A stretch of 64,000 nucleotides of DNA from a virus, in IMG/VR virus record IMGVR_UViG_3300032296_003307, positions 186,001 through 250,000 of that record. One strand, 5' to 3'. The notes under the pieces are model-generated. The model did no database searches. It saw only the letters and a list, made by a program, of their open reading frames with translations, and was not told the origin of the DNA. Of the stretch, positions 13,297-28,811 are shown in pieces; position 1 is the stretch's first letter; every line of letters begins with the position of its first letter. A program made the translations under genes and the position numbers.

Positions 13297-13342
13297 TCTT
13301 TTGTATCTTTGTATCATATTTAATAGGAAAGGAAAAAATAAA

Positions 13343-13438
13343 ATGACACTCGTACACAAACATATGGTCAAGAATATGATTCAATTCTGTCAGAATTGGT
13401 ATATTCGCTTGTCCGTGAGTTCGGGTGTTGTTTCGTAA
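13343..13438 (+). CDS. Leader peptide (31 aa) of the first tRNA-array attenuator
   Basis: ATG preceded by AGGAAAGG, a real Shine-Dalgarno site rare in this genome, and by a TATCTTTG promoter box near 13307. Its 3' codons contain GTGAGTTCGGGT (13415-13426), which pairs with 13462-13473 and so competes with the terminator stem. Position and overlap suggest a regulatory leader rather than a functional protein. Confidence 0.5.
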   Translation: MTLVHKHMVKNMIQFCQNWYIRLSVSSGVVS

Positions 13439-13490
13439 CAACCAAAGCCTATAAAAAGGAAACCCGAACTCACAAGGTTCGGGTTTTTTT
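13415..13490 (+). promoter_or_regulatory. Attenuator upstream of the first tRNA array
   Basis: Three segments: GTGAGTTCGGGT (13415-13426), AACCCGAACTCAC (13461-13473) and GTTCGGGTT plus T8 (13477-13490). Segments 1-2 form a 12-bp stem enclosing a GTTGT/ACAAC hairpin. Segments 2-3 form a 9-bp terminator. The two are mutually exclusive, as in classical attenuation. Confidence 0.6.
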
Positions 13491-13491
13491 T

Positions 13492-13508
13492 GTTCTTTGA
13501 CATATTGG
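13492..13508 (+). promoter_or_regulatory. boxA-like motif GTTCTTTGACATATTGG
   Basis: Identical 17-mer to 22128-22144; variants precede 17610 and the tmRNA. It resembles the antitermination boxA leader element of rRNA operons. It sits 11 nt before tRNA-Phe. Confidence 0.6.
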
Positions 13509-13518
13509 TAGCAAAATT

Positions 13519-13591
13519 GGACAGGTAGCTCAGGTGGTAGAGCACTGGACTGAAAATCCAGGTGTCGCGGGTTCAACTCCCGCCCTGTCCA
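13519..13591 (+). tRNA. tRNA-Phe (GAA)
   Basis: Acceptor GGACAGG/CCTGTCC, anticodon loop CTGAAAA, T-arm GCGGG-TTCAACT-CCCGC. First tRNA of the array. Confidence 0.95.
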
Positions 13592-13599
13592 CAAATTGA

Positions 13600-13767
13600 T
13601 TACTTTTTCTTCAGGTATATTGACCAGAATACACCTGCCAAAGTCATCGATGCGCCTATAACTTCAGCTAAACTTGATTCGTCAATGTAACCCTTGGAAA
13701 CTAAGATACCACCAATAAAGGTTAATCCGTGTCTCACAATTCCTTGTACTTGTTCTTTTGTCATCAT
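13600..13767 (-). CDS. Holin-like small membrane protein (Pam3_gp28-like)
   Basis: 55 residues: MMTKEQVQGIVRHGLTFIGG with hydrophobic segments ILVSKGYI and IGASMTLAGVFWSIYL, then a KKK tail. The pattern (RH.LT..GG.L..KG.., GA..TL.G..WS...K) matches the small phage holin family named after Pam3 gp28. It would permeabilise the inner membrane at lysis. Oriented against the tRNA array and placed between two tRNAs. The start could be either of two adjacent ATGs. Confidence 0.7.
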   Translation of the reverse strand: MMTKEQVQGIVRHGLTFIGGILVSKGYIDESSLAEVIGASMTLAGVFWSIYLKKK

Positions 13768-13808
13768 GTTTTAATTATTTAATGAGGTTTATTTCTATAT
13801 AAATATCT

Positions 13809-13883
13809 TGGGATATAGCTCAGTTGGTTTAGAGCATTTGTCTGATACGCAAAAGGTCACCGGTTCAAGTCCGGTTATCCCAA
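13809..13883 (+). tRNA. tRNA-Ile (GAT)
   Basis: Acceptor TGGGATA/TATCCCA, loop CTGATAC, T-arm ACCGG-TTCAAGT-CCGGT. One of the few here with CCA encoded (13884-13886). Confidence 0.95.
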
Positions 13884-13891
13884 CCATAAAT

Positions 13892-13962
13892 TACCCCCTC
13901 GTCTAACGGCAGGACAAGTGGTTTTGGTCCACTTAATCGAGGTTCGAATCCTTGGGGGGTAA
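13892..13962 (+). tRNA. tRNA-Gln (TTG)
   Basis: Acceptor TACCCCC/GGGGGTA, loop TTTTGGT, T-arm CGAGG-TTCGAAT-CCTTG. Ends are certain to within 1 nt. Confidence 0.92.
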
Positions 13963-13968
13963 CAACAT

Positions 13969-14043
13969 GACTTCGTAGCTCAATTGGTTTAGAGCACCTC
14001 ACTTTTAATGAGGGGGTTTCGGGTTCGAGTCCCGACGGGGTCA
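13969..14043 (+). tRNA. tRNA-Lys (TTT)
   Basis: Acceptor GACTTCG/CGGGGTC, loop CTTTTAA, T-arm TCGGG-TTCGAGT-CCCGA. Confidence 0.95.
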
Positions 14044-14051
14044 CAAAAGGT

Positions 14052-14151
14052 TGATTGGGGAAAGATTAACGATGGTGGTAACATTAGAAACAGTCGTTAA
14101 TTCGGAGGGGTATAGGCTGAAACGGTCTTCAAAACGAAGTAATGCCAATCA
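14052..14151 (+). ncRNA. Structured, tRNA-sized RNA element without cloverleaf
   Basis: 100 nt between tRNA-Lys and tRNA-Val closed by TGATTGG/CCAATCA. An inner 8-bp helix ATTAACGA/TCGTTAAT and a CTTC/GAAG hairpin are present; no TTCGA-type T-arm. Followed by CAAA as the tRNAs are. Nature unknown. Confidence 0.4.
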
Positions 14152-14194
14152 CAAAAACAGATGTCCACAGACCCATCTTTTGTTTTCCTTAATT

Positions 14195-14268
14195 CCCACC
14201 TTAGCTCAGTTGGTTAGAGCACCTGCCTTACATGCAGGGGGTCGTTGGTTCGAGTCCAACAGGAGGGA
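14195..14268 (+). tRNA. tRNA-Val (TAC)
   Basis: Loop CTTACAT, T-arm GTTGG-TTCGAGT-CCAAC. Acceptor CCCACCT/AGGAGGG has one A-A mismatch. Confidence 0.9.
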
Positions 14269-14274
14269 CAAAAT

Positions 14275-14356
14275 GCCAGTATCGCATAGCGGCAATTGCA
14301 CTTGACTGTAAATCAAGCCTCTTTTGAGTTCGTAGGTTCGAGTCCTACTGCTGGCA
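14275..14356 (+). tRNA. tRNA-Tyr (GTA)
   Basis: Loop CTGTAAA, long variable arm, T-arm GTAGG-TTCGAGT-CCTAC, acceptor GCCAGTA/TGCTGGC. Confidence 0.95.
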
Positions 14357-14370
14357 CAAAACTTATAATC

Positions 14371-14403
14371 CTCCAAAACTCGATTTTTTTATTAGTTTTG
14401 GAG
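14371..14403 (+). other. 10-bp inverted repeat between tRNA-Tyr and tRNA-Cys
   Basis: CTCCAAAACT/AGTTTTGGAG with a T-rich 13-nt loop. The T run is in the loop, so it is not a normal terminator. It may be a processing hairpin. Confidence 0.4.
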
Positions 14404-14418
14404 AGTTATATAATATAA

Positions 14419-14492
14419 GTCCATGTGCCTGAGTGGTTCAAAGGGACGGTCTGCAAAACCGTTATTCGTCAGTTCGAATCTGACCGTGGACT
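14419..14492 (+). tRNA. tRNA-Cys (GCA)
   Basis: Acceptor GTCCATG/CGTGGAC, loop CTGCAAA, T-arm GTCAG-TTCGAAT-CTGAC. Confidence 0.95.
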
Positions 14493-14494
14493 CT

Positions 14495-14569
14495 GTGGTT
14501 GTAGCTCAGTTGGTTTAGAGCGTTGGTTTGTGGCACCAAAGGTCGTGGGTTCAAGTCCCATCAATCACC
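14495..14569 (+). tRNA. tRNA-His (GTG)
   Basis: Acceptor GTGGTTG/CAATCAC, loop TTGTGGC. CCA is encoded (14570-14572). The base at -1 is T, so the usual G-1 is not encoded. Confidence 0.93.
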
Positions 14570-14575
14570 CCAAAT

Positions 14576-14649
14576 GGTTCCTTAGCTCAATGGATTAGAG
14601 CGTTTCGCTACGGACGAAAAGGTTGGGGGTTCGAATCCCTCAGGAATCA
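14576..14649 (+). tRNA. tRNA-Arg (ACG)
   Basis: Acceptor GGTTCCT/AGGAATC, loop CTACGGA. A34 would need host TadA for inosine. Confidence 0.95.
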
Positions 14650-14655
14650 CAAATA

Positions 14656-14728
14656 CGTAAGTGTGGTGAAATGGTATCATCACGGTCTCCAAAACCGTTG
14701 TTGGGGGTTCGAATCCCTCCACTTGCGC
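14656..14728 (+). tRNA. tRNA-Trp (CCA)
   Basis: Acceptor CGTAAGT/ACTTGCG, loop CTCCAAA, T-arm GGGGG-TTCGAAT-CCCTC. Confidence 0.93.
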
Positions 14729-14732
14729 AAAT

Positions 14733-14806
14733 GGCGAGGTAGCTCAATTGGTCAGAGCATCTGTTTCATACGCAGAAGGTTGTCGGTTCGATTCCGACCC
14801 TCGCTA
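14733..14806 (+). tRNA. tRNA with CAT anticodon (elongator Met or Ile2)
   Basis: Acceptor GGCGAGG/CCTCGCT, loop TTCATAC, T-arm GTCGG-TTCGATT-CCGAC. One of four CAT tRNAs in the window; it lacks initiator features. Confidence 0.92.
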
Positions 14807-14807
14807 C

Positions 14808-15299
14808 TTATTTAGAAAAATGAAAAAACATTAAAAGTGTTGCAAAGAAATTGAATATACTACTAACAACAACATAGTCACCTCTTGTTCTACGTACAAC
14901 TCTTTCTAATTGGTATGAATTTGGGTCTAATTCCCACCTGTTTGTGGAATCAACCCAATTGTAGATTAAGTAATTTTCATCAGGAACCGCAAGGGCTGTT
15001 TTATGTGCGGGTACTTTTAACGAATCAACCACAACAATTTTAGTTGTGTCTATTATTGTATAACGACAAATTACAGTATCTGATTTTCTTTTAATTTTTG
15101 ACAATGAATCAATTTCTGATTGTTGTTGTTTTATTTTGTTTCTCTGTGATGCCAAAGTTTCATTAACTTTAACCGCTTGAGATTTTAACATTATAACAAC
15201 GGTATCTTTTTTTCTTACTTCTTGGAATGGGTATTCAGTTTGCGCTGTCAAGTGCGAAAACAAACCTATTAGGGTCATCGTTAAAAGTAGTTTTTTCAT
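14808..15299 (-). CDS. Exported coiled-coil protein with C-terminal membrane helix (spanin-like?)
   Basis: 163 residues. Signal peptide MKKLLLTMTLIGLFSHLTAQ, then a Lys/Gln-rich coiled coil (about 35-75), then a beta-type region and a C-terminal hydrophobic helix (IFNFFATLLMFFHF). It overlaps the next leftward ORF by 65 nt in another frame, like nested Rz/Rz1 pairs. A lysis (spanin) role is a guess from architecture and overlap. Confidence 0.6.
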   Translation of the reverse strand: MKKLLLTMTLIGLFSHLTAQTEYPFQEVRKKDTVVIMLKSQAVKVNETLASQRNKIKQQQSEIDSLSKIKRKSDTVICRYTIIDTTKIVVVDSLKVPAHKTALAVPDENYLIYNWVDSTNRWELDPNSYQLERVVRRTRGDYVVVSSIFNFFATLLMFFHFSK

Positions 15300-15573
15300 T
15301 AGAATCTTTTGATAGTTGGTTTAGTTTTTCTTCAGACAGTTTCAATTTTGTTTTTAATTGATTAATGTTTGATGATATTTGATTCACGGAATTGTTCTTT
15401 GCTTTTTCCGCATTTGCAAATGCCGTACTTGCCGCTCTCATGTTTTTATTGCTATTTTTTGACAATAACTCAATTTCATCAACTTTTGATTGAGGTTCAC
15501 TATTCAAGTTAGGTATCATATCAACAAACATGAAAAGAGCTGCGACTGCGATTATTTTTGATAAGTGGTTCAT
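15235..15573 (-). CDS. Membrane-anchored coiled-coil protein
   Basis: 112 residues. Hydrophobic N-terminus KIIAVAALFMFVDMI, then Ser/Asn-rich helical sequence with a Lys/Leu heptad region (NQLKTKLKLSEEKLNQL). Its start overlaps the upstream ORF by ATGA and its end overlaps the downstream ORF by 65 nt, so the three genes form one tight unit. Possibly part of a lysis or envelope complex. Confidence 0.6.
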   Translation of the reverse strand: MNHLSKIIAVAALFMFVDMIPNLNSEPQSKVDEIELLSKNSNKNMRAASTAFANAEKAKNNSVNQISSNINQLKTKLKLSEEKLNQLSKDSNEKTTFNDDPNRFVFALDSAN

Positions 15574-15893
15574 TTTGGGATTTTTCCTAACGTTGTTAAT
15601 ACCTCAATGTAAGAGTTGGCACTTGCCAAAGAACTATCCGATTTTTTCCAACCGTGATAAGTAAATTCTTTTTGAGATTCCAATTGTTCGATTTTCTTAT
15701 CTTTTAATTCTATTTGCTTTTCATAGTTTCTTTTGTTGTCTTGCCATAAATAAACCATTCCGATTAATAATAAAAATTGAACCGCTTTCCAAGGGTCTTT
15801 AGAAAACTGTTCAAATGAAATTGGAAGTGGACCTGGCACTTTTGCGTTTGTGATTTTTTTTGTTGTTCTAGGTTTTTTCGTAGTTTCACTCAT
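15570..15893 (-). CDS. Small membrane protein with coiled coil
   Basis: 107 residues. Basic N-terminus, one transmembrane helix (AVQFLLLIGMVYLW, about 38-51), then a coiled coil (YEKQIELKDKKIEQLESQK). First gene of the three-gene leftward unit. AT-rich upstream region with TATTTATC on the minus strand near 15916. Function unknown. Confidence 0.6.
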   Translation of the reverse strand: MSETTKKPRTTKKITNAKVPGPLPISFEQFSKDPWKAVQFLLLIGMVYLWQDNKRNYEKQIELKDKKIEQLESQKEFTYHGWKKSDSSLASANSYIEVLTTLGKIPK

Positions 15894-16003
15894 TTTAAAT
15901 TTATTTATATATGATAAATATTCATTTACTATTGACTTTGTATTTTAATTTGGTTATAATCGGTTTTTTTTTAAAAAAATTTGGCGGATAAAAATATTCG
16001 CAT

Positions 16004-16011
16004 TACCTTTG
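16004..16011 (+). promoter_or_regulatory. Early-type promoter box TACCTTTG
   Basis: Ends 4 nt before the ATG at 16016, implying a leaderless mRNA. Confidence 0.65.
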
Positions 16012-16015
16012 TGAC

Positions 16016-16492
16016 ATGGATAAAAAATTTATTTCATCTTCTGAAGCTATCAAAGGTTGTTCTGATTCGGTAATTGCCAAATCTGAAAGAAATGACTGTG
16101 TTGTTAGAGCAATTGCATCGGCGTATGATATGCATTATGATGCCGCACATCAATTGGTTAAAGAAAAATTTCACAGACAAAACGGTAAAGGTACTCGTGG
16201 GTTTATTTACGGTATGAATATGGCGTCCAAAAATGGTGAAAAAATTAACGGTAAATCTGTTGAAATTATTACTGAGGAACACAATACCATGTTGTACTAT
16301 GTAACTGTAAAAGGTAGAAAGACTCTTAGAAAAACTACAACAGGTCACTTTATGAAAAAATATTCAACCGGTGCGTACATTGTCACTGTTAGAGGACATG
16401 CCTTTACCATTAAAGACGGTGTCATTATTGGAAATTTTGACGACGGCAAAAAATTAAAAAAACATATCGAAGCGGCTTGGAAAATTGGGTAA
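16016..16492 (+). CDS. Papain-fold-like cysteine peptidase homologue
   Basis: 158 residues. ERNDCVVRAIASAYDMHYD offers the Cys nucleophile near residue 28. GAYIVTVRGHAFTIKDGVIIGNFDD near residue 125 gives the His and a following Asn/Asp. This spacing is that of small phage C39/papain-like proteins. Could cleave a peptide or act as an amidase/deubiquitinase-like enzyme; substrate unknown. It is followed by tRNA-Leu after 25 nt, so the second tRNA group may be cotranscribed from its promoter. Confidence 0.6.
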   Translation: MDKKFISSSEAIKGCSDSVIAKSERNDCVVRAIASAYDMHYDAAHQLVKEKFHRQNGKGTRGFIYGMNMASKNGEKINGKSVEIITEEHNTMLYYVTVKGRKTLRKTTTGHFMKKYSTGAYIVTVRGHAFTIKDGVIIGNFDDGKKLKKHIEAAWKIG

Positions 16493-16517
16493 TATTTTTT
16501 AAGTTTGTTAAACAAAA

Positions 16518-16600
16518 TACCGAAGTGGTGTAATGGTAGCCACGTTAGTCTTAGGAACTAATGTCGAAAGACGTGTGGGTTCGAGTCCCTCCTTCGGTAC
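16518..16600 (+). tRNA. tRNA-Leu (TAG)
   Basis: Acceptor TACCGAA/TTCGGTA, loop CTTAGGA, long variable arm, T-arm GTGGG-TTCGAGT-CCCTC. Confidence 0.93.
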
Positions 16601-16603
16601 AAA

Positions 16604-16686
16604 TATCAGTGTGGCGTAACGGTAGCCGCGGTCGTCTCAAAAGCGACTCTCAAAAGAGGTGTAGGTTCGATTCCTACCACTGATAC
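16604..16686 (+). tRNA. tRNA-Leu (CAA)
   Basis: Acceptor TATCAGT/ACTGATA, loop CTCAAAA, variable arm TCTCAAAAGAGG, T-arm GTAGG-TTCGATT-CCTAC. Confidence 0.95.
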
Positions 16687-16688
16687 AA

Positions 16689-16868
16689 ATGGAAAACATA
16701 AAAGTATTAACTGATGAAGAAAAATTGACTTTTATTACCAAAAATGAATATGAGATAGTAAAGGCAATCATCAATGGTCATAAAGCAACAGAAAACGACC
16801 AATTTGAAGAGCAAAGAAAGTTGATTAAACAATATAGGGAAGAATTGGGTTTAATAAAACCAAGATAA
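16689..16868 (+). CDS. Small protein (59 aa), unknown
   Basis: Starts 3 nt after tRNA-Leu and stops 1 nt before tRNA-Asn, so it is embedded in the array. Helical and charged (MENIKVLTDEEKLTFITKNE ... REELGLIKPR). No family recognised. Confidence 0.6.
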   Translation: MENIKVLTDEEKLTFITKNEYEIVKAIINGHKATENDQFEEQRKLIKQYREELGLIKPR

Positions 16869-16869
16869 A

Positions 16870-16943
16870 CTCCTCGATAGCTCAGCGGTAGAGCACTCGG
16901 CTGTTAACCGAGCGGTCCCAAGTTCGAATCTTGGTCGGGGAGC
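16870..16943 (+). tRNA. tRNA-Asn (GTT)
   Basis: Acceptor CTCCTCG/CGGGGAG, loop CTGTTAA, T-arm CAAG-TTCGAAT-CTTG. Confidence 0.95.
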
Positions 16944-16945
16944 AA

Positions 16946-17041
16946 AGTGGAAGATTAAGACACAGAAACAACACCAAGTCAGTGGAGGGGAAACCCATAG
17001 AAGCGTTATAACACTTGGTGAGTAAACAGATACTTTTCACT
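16946..17041 (+). ncRNA. Structured RNA element, ~96 nt
   Basis: Directly after tRNA-Asn and its CAAA trailer. Closed by AGTGGAAG/CTTTTCACT (with G-U pairs), with an inner perfect 8-bp helix CACCAAGT/ACTTGGTG and a GGG-GAAA-CCC hairpin. No cloverleaf. Not a family I can name. Confidence 0.5.
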
Positions 17042-17044
17042 TGT

Positions 17045-17179
17045 TAATCAGATGGGCGTAATGAGGGAAGGTCCCGAGTCCTGAAAACACCACGGTCCAT
17101 AATCATTTGGATGCGAGACGTTGTAAGGTTGTCTAATCCGTCCATGAACGGTATCCGGTTCGAGTCCGGCTCTGATTAC
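17045..17179 (+). ncRNA. Expanded tRNA-like RNA (~135 nt) with real T-arm
   Basis: Acceptor AATCAGA/TCTGATT and T-arm CCGG-TTCGAGT-CCGG are tRNA-like, but the middle is ~60 nt too long and holds several small hairpins (TCCA/TGGA, AGAC/GTCT, CCGT/ACGG) instead of a clear anticodon arm. It is the same size as 22233-22367. It could be an intron-bearing tRNA or a tRNA mimic. Confidence 0.5.
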
Positions 17180-17180
17180 A

Positions 17181-17346
17181 AATAATGGTAACAATAAGTA
17201 GGTGGAAAGCGCCGGGAGAGCGGTTTCTTAAGGGTACACACTAAGGACAGGTTGACATTCTTAAATGTATTGTCGTAAATCCCATCTCTCTAATGGTGTG
17301 TGAAGTTTAAATACGGGATTCCTGAAAAATTTCCACCACCATTATT
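17181..17346 (+). ncRNA. Structured RNA element, ~166 nt, followed by T run
   Basis: Two stacked closing helices, AATAATGGT/ACCATTATT (9 bp) and GGTGGAAA/TTTCCACC (8 bp), enclose AATCCC/GGGATT, CACAC/GTGTG, GACA/TGTC and ACAT/ATGT helices. A run of T directly after may terminate transcription. It fills the stretch between the tRNA-like element and the small gene at 17368. Confidence 0.55.
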
Positions 17347-17355
17347 TTTTTATTG

Positions 17356-17363
17356 TATCTTTG
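17356..17363 (+). promoter_or_regulatory. Early-type promoter box TATCTTTG
   Basis: Ends 4 nt before the ATG at 17368. Confidence 0.65.
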
Positions 17364-17367
17364 CACC

Positions 17368-17514
17368 ATGGAAACACAAAATAAAGATTGGAAACAGGGT
17401 ATGTCAAATGGACATATCGCCCAAATTGTTCGCAGGAAGAATGTTGTCCGTATTGTGCAATCAAAGAAAGTGTATAACAGAAAAAAAATTAAAAATAATT
17501 TATCGGAATATTAA
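17368..17514 (+). CDS. Small basic protein (48 aa), unknown
   Basis: Strongly basic C-terminal half (RRKNVVRIVQSKKVYNRKKIKNN), probably nucleic-acid binding. Own promoter box, apparently leaderless. Lies between two structured RNA elements. Confidence 0.6.
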   Translation: METQNKDWKQGMSNGHIAQIVRRKNVVRIVQSKKVYNRKKIKNNLSEY

Positions 17515-17525
17515 AATTTTTGTCT

Positions 17526-17582
17526 TATCTTTGTATCATGATTTAGGGGGGACGGTAAGTGGTTAGTTGGATACCGTCCCCC
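17526..17582 (+). ncRNA. Promoter plus short hairpin RNA with two-codon ORF
   Basis: TATCTTTG (17526-17533) ends 4 nt before an ATG that reads AUG AUU UAG. It is followed by an 11-bp hairpin GGGGGACGGTA/TACCGTCCCCC (17547-17582) without a T tail. Either a 5' leader element or a small stable RNA. Confidence 0.45.
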
Positions 17583-17592
17583 AGTCAAATTA

Positions 17593-17608
17593 GTTCTTTG
17601 AAAAAAAT
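17593..17608 (+). promoter_or_regulatory. boxA-like motif GTTCTTTGAAAAAAAT
   Basis: Shares GTTCTTTGA with 13492, 22128 and the tmRNA leader. It sits just before the next structured RNA. Confidence 0.45.
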
Positions 17609-17609
17609 A

Positions 17610-17688
17610 AAATCACGGGTGGCTCCCTTAATAGTTAAGGCTGACCTTAAGCATCCACCGAAAGGTATACAGGGGGCGAAAGTGATTT
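17610..17688 (+). ncRNA. Structured RNA element, ~79 nt
   Basis: Closed by AAATCAC/GTGATTT. Inner helices GGTGG/CCACC and CCTTA/TAAGG and a CC-GAAA-GG tetraloop; CTCCC can also pair with GGGGG as a pseudoknot. tRNA-sized but no T-arm. Confidence 0.5.
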
Positions 17689-17695
17689 AAAGATA

Positions 17696-17832
17696 TTGAT
17701 AGTGGTTTTCCCCACTCAACGGATGTCGACAATCCAGAGTGGAATCGGAATTCAGCACCCTCAGCCGAGGCCTTGTAAAACTATAATTAAGCTGTTAAGA
17801 TTGGGACGAGACGGGTATCCCATCACTATCAA
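17696..17832 (+). ncRNA. Structured RNA element, ~137 nt
   Basis: Closed by TTGATAGTG/CACTATCAA. It contains CCACTC/GAGTGG around a GGAT/ATCC hairpin with a 7-nt loop, and a CCTC-AGCC-GAGG hairpin. Ends 8 nt before a tRNA-like element. Confidence 0.5.
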
Positions 17833-17840
17833 AAATATTT

Positions 17841-17946
17841 AGTCAGGTGGCGGAATGGTAGACGCAAGGATAAGTGGTGAGGTGAGGCGGGTAATCCACC
17901 GTAGATACCATATCCACGATTACAGGTTCAACTCCTGTCCTGACTA
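17841..17946 (+). ncRNA. tRNA-Leu-like RNA with expanded anticodon region (106 nt)
   Basis: Acceptor AGTCAGG/CCTGACT, D-arm GCG...CGC and T-arm ACAGG-TTCAACT-CCTGT are normal. The GGATA/TATCC stem in the anticodon position encloses 38 nt instead of 7. Sister of 18118-18222. Anticodon not assignable. Confidence 0.6.
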
Positions 17947-17965
17947 CAAATTAAAAAAAAACAAT

Positions 17966-18112
17966 ATGTATTTAATAATAAAATTAGACGGTAGCAAAAC
18001 TTACATGAATGAAAGAATCATTATGAAAATAGAAGTTAATGAAGATGGTACTTTTACGCTATACCATTTTAATGATTCACGAGTTCAAATTAAAGCCTTT
18101 AGTAAAATATAA
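17966..18112 (+). CDS. Small protein (48 aa), unknown
   Basis: MYLIIKLDGSKTYMNERIIM ... RVQIKAFSKI, beta-rich. Embedded between two sister tRNA-like genes, 19 nt after one and 5 nt before the other, preceded by an A-rich leader. Confidence 0.55.
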   Translation: MYLIIKLDGSKTYMNERIIMKIEVNEDGTFTLYHFNDSRVQIKAFSKI

Positions 18113-18117
18113 AATAT

Positions 18118-18222
18118 AGTCAGGTGGCGAAATTGGTAAACGCAGTGTATGGGTCGCAACCATTGGGAGTACTCGTTCCAACAGACAAACGAGGTGTACA
18201 GGTTCGAATCCTGTTCTGACTA
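18118..18222 (+). ncRNA. tRNA-Leu-like RNA with long extra arm (105 nt)
   Basis: Acceptor AGTCAGG/TCTGACT, Leu-type D-arm, T-arm ACAGG-TTCGAAT-CCTGT. The middle holds ATGG-GTCGCAA-CCAT, whose 7-nt loop would read CGC, and an arm ACTCGTT/AACGAG with extra bulges. Body (Leu/Ser type) and apparent anticodon (Ala) disagree, so it is left unassigned. Confidence 0.6.
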
Positions 18223-18239
18223 CAAAGAGGAAAAAAACC

Positions 18240-18279
18240 GAGTGTAGCGGCCTCAAGGGACTGCAGCCCTACTACACTC
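18240..18279 (+). ncRNA. Mini hairpin element (40 nt)
   Basis: GAGTGTAG/CTACACTC closing stem with GC-rich interior. One of five 36-40-nt elements with an 8-11-bp closing helix scattered between tRNAs. Confidence 0.4.
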
Positions 18280-18282
18280 CAT

Positions 18283-18372
18283 AGCCGAGTGGTGTAAGTG
18301 GGAATGAATACCACCTTGGGAAACATCTCTATTTTAGATAGGGGGACACGGGTTCGAATCCCGTCTTGGCTA
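18283..18372 (+). tRNA. Type II tRNA (Ser-sized, 90 nt), anticodon unclear
   Basis: Acceptor AGCCGAG/CTTGGCT, T-arm ACGGG-TTCGAAT-CCCGT, CCA encoded (18373-18375), and a CTCTA...TAGGG stem. Length fits Ser, the only amino acid without a canonical tRNA here, but no Ser anticodon falls in a normal loop. Confidence 0.55.
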
Positions 18373-18377
18373 CCAAT

Positions 18378-18602
18378 ATGAAATACGTATTTAGAGGACA
18401 TGTTGTGTTTGAATATAAACCAAATGAGGAAGACCGAAAAAAAGGTGTTGTAGAACAACATCAAATAAATGATGTTATACCCGCATATGATTATTGTAGG
18501 TTTATTCCTGATGATTACCGAATGATTGGAGAATTTTTTACAACCGCATATAGACATATTCAAGGAGAAGACGTAAATTTGGAAGATATTGAAGTTTACT
18601 AA
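18378..18602 (+). CDS. Small protein (74 aa), unknown
   Basis: Starts at the ATG 3 nt after the CCA of the preceding tRNA. Mixed alpha/beta (KYVFRGHVVFEYKPNEEDRK, YCRFIPDDYRMIGEFF). The next gene starts 1 nt after the stop. Confidence 0.6.
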   Translation: MKYVFRGHVVFEYKPNEEDRKKGVVEQHQINDVIPAYDYCRFIPDDYRMIGEFFTTAYRHIQGEDVNLEDIEVY

Positions 18603-28427: not shown

Positions 28428-28430
28428 TTG

Positions 28431-28811
28431 TGGAGGTGGAGGGTATCGAACCCTCGTCCAGTCTACCTTGACTGTAAGGTACTACACGTTTAGGTTAACA
28501 TTTGCTAATGTTCCAAACTTCACAATTCCCTTATTTTATAGTGGTTCGGTTTACTGAGAACTAATCCTCCACTTGTTTCTTTTAAGATAGAAACCACACC
28601 TCTAAAGGACTTATGTTCCTAGGTTAATGTCCTCCCGACCTGAGTGTTATAGCGATTAGGCTACAACTGAAGCCTCTTCACGGAACAAACCGCAAGCTGC
28701 CATGTTATTTAAAACGTTGCCGTCTAATTGGTTAAATCAGTTTTTAATGAGTTAATTCAGCTCATACGTGCACCTTACCTTCAAAAATACCTGTCAAATC
28801 CAGTCACCCCC
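28431..28811 (-). ncRNA. ssrA: Phage tmRNA
   Basis: 381 nt. Acceptor 5' GGGGGTG pairs with 3' CACCTCC; T-arm GAGGG-TTCGATA-CCCTC; GGTGACTGGATTTGACAGG is the conserved tmRNA 5' end. Resume region TTAGAC then GGC at 28721-28719 and stop TAA at 28658-28656 give a 21-residue tag starting GNVLNNMAACG and ending LFREEASVVA. This is unlike the ALAA-ending ~9-residue tags typical of Bacteroidota. A TATATTTG box and boxA-like GTTCTTTGAAATAT precede it. It rescues stalled ribosomes and tags the products. Confidence 0.9.

Follow-up and report, generated by a model that had tools for sequence, protein, structure and literature searches.

Bacteriophage T4 carries small stable RNAs, rnaC and rnaD, within its tRNA cluster. 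These species 1 and 2 RNAs appear late, have been seen on Northern blot and have no known function (PMC9697503). GOLLD and ROOL are structured phage RNAs near tRNA islands, and their function is likewise unknown (PMC12286853). RNase P is able to cut hairpin model substrates and pre-4.5S RNA (PMC11143913). Here we describe a run of structured elements in the tRNA array of a phage. Judged from sequence comparison, this run consists of several distinct, previously uncatalogued structured RNAs that are common to many uncultivated phages. We consider it likely that they are independent noncoding RNA genes in the array, which would be excised together with the tRNAs; more tentatively, they may act in trans.

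The window, i.e. the whole stretch of 64,000 nucleotides that was analysed, is part of a virus record of 268,739 bases. It encodes a T4-type terminase (PF03237), a portal protein (PF07230), about 30 tRNAs and, on the minus strand, a tmRNA (28428-28811). The source is a large, T4-like phage. Its terminase is distant from those of the nearest named phages, among them Flavobacterium phage immuto (25-29% identity); closer terminases are found in hundreds of uncultivated contigs. The promoter boxes read TAnnTTTG, which suggests that the host belongs to the Bacteroidota. A protein flanking the array (16016-16492) was used as a handle to relatives and yielded none. A small conserved protein with the sequence MTKEQxQGIVRHxLTFxGG (13597-13767, minus strand) lies directly after tRNA-Phe and occupies the same place in the related record G010. 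The array contains the following features:

14052-14187, plus strand: element A, a domain closed by TGATTGG/CCAATCA (14052-14151) with a conserved 3' hairpin reaching to about 14187
16946-17041, plus strand: element B, with a closing helix that includes G.U pairs; an unconfirmed orphan
17045-17180, plus strand: element T, a tRNA-like RNA with the acceptor TAATCAG/CTGATTA and a T-arm with TTCGA
17181-17346, plus strand: element C, a noncoding RNA family of about 140-190 nt, with a covarying closing helix (17181-17189 with 17338-17346) and a second helix of 8 bp (17201-17208 with about 17330-17337)
17526-17533, plus strand: TATCTTTG, a -7 promoter box of the Bacteroidota type that precedes the hairpin, D and E, by direct reading
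17547-17582, plus strand: leader hairpin of 11 bp before D, GGGGGGACGGTA..TACCGTCCCCC
17610-17688, plus strand: element D, a compact noncoding RNA with the core GGTGGCTCCCTTAATAGTT-hairpin-AAGCATC ... TATACAGGGGGCGAAAG; its helices are the closing helix AAATCAC/GTGATTT, GCTCCCT:AGGGGGC, a GGTG:CATC pseudoknot and a loop-to-junction pair
17696-17832, plus strand: element E, a noncoding RNA family of about 137-150 nt, with the closing helix TTGATAGTG/CACTATCAA, a long inner arm with conserved GATGTCGACAAT and two small hairpins
17841-17946, plus strand: class-II-like tRNA gene directly after E (RF00005, 41.3 bits, G000:203841-203946), missed by ARAGORN

An earlier note on this DNA had described C, D and E as bounded by perfect end helices, and this was confirmed: C is closed by 9, D by 7 and E by 9 Watson-Crick pairs, the last becoming 11 pairs when G.U is counted. 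The same plan had been claimed for A and B. It applies to A (7 Watson-Crick pairs closing 14052-14151), whereas B is weaker, forming 8 bp only with G.U pairs and having 4 consecutive Watson-Crick pairs, a length reached by 4% of random placements. When stretches of equal length are placed at random in the window, 0.01-0.1% of them reach the Watson-Crick helix lengths of A, C, D and E. Acceptor-like closing helices of about 7 bp are present within the tRNA array, and the proposed absence of a cloverleaf agrees with ARAGORN and Rfam, neither of which calls one on A-E. The tRNA-like spacing was also borne out, as the start of C lies 1-2 nt behind a tRNA and its end mostly 4-7 nt before the next one. 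Both C and E sit tightly between tRNAs, in many cases only a few nucleotides apart from them. Comparison of folding energies with shuffled sequence gave z-scores of -2.72 for C, -2.46 for D, -1.89 for E, -1.96 for A and -1.00 for B, so that C and D passed this check, A and E were borderline and B failed. The z-scores of the elements are within the range of four tRNAs from the same array (-1.1 to -3.4) and folding alone thus decides little. A, C, D and E were instead settled by the comparative evidence of conservation and covariation; B was not.

The search of other phage arrays that the earlier note had suggested succeeded for A, C, D and E, which recur in viral contigs, but not for B, for which the fetched loci contained nothing except one weak 29-nt match. 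The idea that all elements form a single family of processed RNAs did not survive this comparison. The covariance model of D (R1) scores D with 96.6 bits and the rest of the array (13300-18400) with at most 8.1 bits, and the cores of C, D, E and also A differ, sharing neither sequence nor structure. Moreover, D is started by a promoter of its own in many phages and also lies outside tRNA arrays, and B is without a homologue. A was recognized by its motif in 11 distinct members, including that of the window. It lies directly upstream of a tRNA, 27-28 nt from GTCCAC, and the stem sequence of its 3' hairpin varies while pairing is kept. Eight of the nine members with a called downstream tRNA precede tRNA-Tyr; in the window it is tRNA-Val. 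In T, an enlarged domain replaces the D and anticodon arms, and homologues with 74-94% identity over 130-139 nt occur in several contigs, with partial matches in more. Four stretches of the array (T at 17045-17180, 17838-17948, 18118-18222 and 18283-18372) are tRNA-like, with T-arm and acceptor and enlarged or atypical D/anticodon regions, and were missed by ARAGORN. A further array element (L103:6779-6980), closed by AATGGAAA/TTTCCATT, is 81% identical in L118 and L131 and weaker in L139 and L105; it is probably another RNA family.

The first homologue of C was found in G010, and a gapped, exact pattern built from the copies of the window and G010 was scanned on viral contigs. It identified C in 36 of them, in all cases within tRNA arrays, and BLAST comparison of these loci found D, E, T and A to be recurrent as well. 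In 21 sequences (alignment A3), 21 of 45 pairs had undergone compensatory changes, including 8 of 10 in the outer closing helix and 6 of 7 in the second helix. AAGGACAGG and GATTCCTGA are conserved. The hairpin loop GGGAGAG can pair with CTCTC to form a pseudoknot and ACACACTA pairs with TGGTGTGT, but these pseudoknot helices are hypothetical, as the 21 sequences contained no compensatory change in them. A covariance model (R3) detected members that the pattern had not selected in records that had been retrieved for their E or D (143-190 bits). The nearest tRNA is on the same strand in 39/39 cases. For E, the pattern was found in 67 viral contigs, again with the nearest tRNA on the same strand in every case (67/67). 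Across 26 sequences 99.0% of cells were paired, and 16 of 34 pairs, among them 4 of 8 in the closing helix, were compensatory. Its model likewise found unselected members in records retrieved on account of D or C (83-162 bits), and in the held-out E of L161 the closing helix is GAACAACG/CGTTGTTC in place of TTGATAGTG/CACTATCAA. E sometimes begins at the expected start of a Bacteroidota-type promoter. Just 3' of E, a conserved ATTGTGTTGTTCC...GAGAAAGGAA is often seen (L118, L222, L224, L230, L260, L265).

D was detected in 78 viral contigs with a strict pattern and in at least 119 with a looser one. Across 39 sequences, 96.5% of cells were paired and compensatory changes affected 7 of 8 pairs of the closing helix, 3 of 6 of the inner hairpin and 3 of 3 of P3. 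The junction base N of TTAAYNG pairs with the loop base of CNGA in all 85 distinct sequences, as A-T in 59, G-C in 25 and C-G in one. The GGTG:CATC helix varies to GATG:CATC, ATTG:CAAT and AGTG:CATT with pairing kept in nearly all copies. Two strand connectivities exist: a:d with b:c, the type of the window, in 45 distinct sequences and a:b with c:d in 23, while 15, mostly copies within tmRNA, were unclassified. Record G032 contains one D of each connectivity. D occurs in several genomic contexts. In 37 of 81 segments it precedes tmRNA by 25-29 nt, and in 11 contigs it lies within tmRNA, where it aligns with the pseudoknot region that follows the tag; other copies stand at the start of tRNA arrays or between tRNAs. 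The tmRNA of the window has no D inside or upstream, unlike many relatives, and the D of the window is in the tRNA array. In L287, L298, L324, L327 and similar contigs D directly follows a gene ending in ..SPFECEGCGS or its relatives, which in L287 reads as nrdA-like from its protein, and in L185 it precedes a terminator; D is therefore not tied to tRNA processing. Of 53 distinct copies of D, 34 have TAnnTTTG upstream, usually at a distance of 6 nt from the closing helix, which fits a transcription start at this helix. In the window the promoter box is further away than usual, with the hairpin leader in between, for which the fetched loci contained no homologue. A motif common to leaders of stable-RNA transcripts, GTTCTTTGAAA/GTTCTTTGACATATTGG, is present at 17593-17603, before tRNA-Phe near 13494 and before tmRNA; it is possibly a boxA-like signal. 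Taken by its sequence and contexts, D appears to be a pseudoknotted module that is complete in itself and functions regardless of where it is transcribed.

Several controls concern the reliability of these structures. For each of C, D and E, all of 500 shuffles stayed below both the percentage of paired cells and the covariation score of the real alignment, and sliding the helix partners by 1-3 columns destroyed the covariation signal. Part of the core conservation in C, D and E stems from the search patterns themselves; members that were not picked by these patterns keep the closing helix with new sequence. G-C to G-U changes, together with the same-strand position of the nearest tRNA in 106/106 cases of C and E, fix the strand. 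Among the Rfam 15 covariance models, which include GOLLD, ROOL, ribozymes and RAGATH, none matched any element (chance matches in the window with E of at least 1.4), and the second topology of D had a best chance match at E 7.4. Blastn of C, D and E against 50,697 named phage records gave chance matches only, and the whole run matched named phages in its tRNAs only. Strict exact patterns of C and D were absent from 84,980 prokaryote genomes, D had only chance matches in plasmids, and no relevant paper carrying the core sequences was found in the literature.

Given the modest energy z-scores, and since neither B nor A with its 3' hairpin folds better than shuffled sequence, one might suspect chance structure in AT-rich spacer. 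For the run we give this next to no credence: it stands for B but is refuted for A, C, D and E by their conservation with compensatory change in many contigs. The acceptor-like helices and the adjoining tRNA-like T could also point to degenerate tRNAs or to decoys for tRNA-cutting host defences, and a role against defences that target tRNAs has been proposed for phage tRNAs (PMC10264068). Such a reading is improbable, as C, D and E have neither T-arm nor anticodon arm and possess covarying non-tRNA cores of their own, and so are not decaying tRNAs. Alternatively, the elements could act in cis on the untranslated tRNA and tmRNA transcripts by antitermination, pausing, processing or stability and have no function in trans. 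D begins the transcript ahead of tmRNA and some tRNA arrays, C of the window is followed by a terminator-like U-run, and C and E were found beside tRNAs only. We nevertheless regard a purely cis-acting role as unlikely: C and E stand mid-array and greatly exceed known terminators in complexity, one or another element is missing from most long records, and D occurs directly before the terminator in L185 and within tmRNA in contigs of the L152 type. The latter two positions also weaken D as an antiterminator.

Hammerhead, twister and pistol ribozymes have a small pseudoknotted core, variable outer stems and alternative connectivities, and hammerhead and twister occur as circular permutations. 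D resembles these self-cleaving ribozymes in all three features and possibly is a ribozyme-like module. If D were a small pseudoknotted catalytic core cleaving the transcript of which it is part, this would explain its location-independent spread and its two connectivities, and it would be consistent with the compact long-range pairs, the conserved core amid variable peripheral helices and the lack of a consistent adjoining gene across loci. On the other hand, D matches none of the known ribozyme families in Rfam at E<=10, no cleavage site is readable in its sequence, and cleavage would split the tmRNA in the 11 contigs where D lies within it, so that self-cleavage has a rather low probability. 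In a broader reading, which is conceivable though short of probable, D would represent a new catalytic or factor-binding RNA class, employed by many uncultivated phages, with two topologies (a:d/b:c or a:b/c:d) around one kissing core, inserted in tmRNA, tmRNA leaders, tRNA arrays and mRNA 3' ends, and C and E would be new phage RNA classes matured with tRNAs.

We favour the interpretation of C, D and E as trans-acting phage RNAs, by analogy with the T4 species 1 and 2 RNAs. Accommodated in the array as independent small noncoding RNA genes, C, D, E, A and T would be transcribed with the tRNAs and then excised to give discrete stable RNAs. Cleavage of the adjoining tRNAs, or of tmRNA in the case of D, by RNase P and the 3' tRNA enzymes would free the elements, whose closing helix would protect the RNA ends as in the T4 RNAs. 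Provided that the array forms a single transcript, C would be left with ends at its closing helix once the flanking tRNAs have matured, and the anatomy of C and E makes excision by tRNA-type processing likely. The released RNAs may act in trans during infection, with the translation or RNA-decay apparatus as the most likely target; we propose this tentatively, on the grounds that the genomic partners are tRNAs and tmRNA and that D lies within the tmRNA body in one phage group. Overall, the array carries several widely shared RNA genes that are absent from Rfam. A pseudoknotted RNA that is at times part of tmRNA and at times its leader is unusual and offers a handle on cleavage, binding and ribosome rescue.

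Compared with tmRNA (RF00023), D is a domain of this molecule in 11 contigs and elsewhere its immediate 5' neighbour; on its own, D lacks tag, T-arm and acceptor and, as in the window, also occurs far from tmRNA. GOLLD and ROOL have only their location in common with the elements, are several times larger and, as Rfam families, do not match them. A GOLLD RNA (319 bits) was observed at L136:9607-10019, in a contig that also bears C and D. As candidate homologues of C, D and E, rnaC and rnaD gave no above-chance match with models R1-R3 with filters off. The T4 species 1 and 2 RNAs (rnaC, rnaD; 139 and 119 nt) lie within a phage tRNA cluster like the elements described here, and C and E share with them the position on the same strand in such a cluster (39/39 and 67/67). 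rnaC contains a tRNA T-arm and acceptor, like T. C, D and E differ from the T4 RNAs in having no T-arm and in forming several families that are spread over many phages. The T4 species 1 and 2 RNAs are still unexplained, and with families that count dozens of members and have solid structures this question becomes testable.
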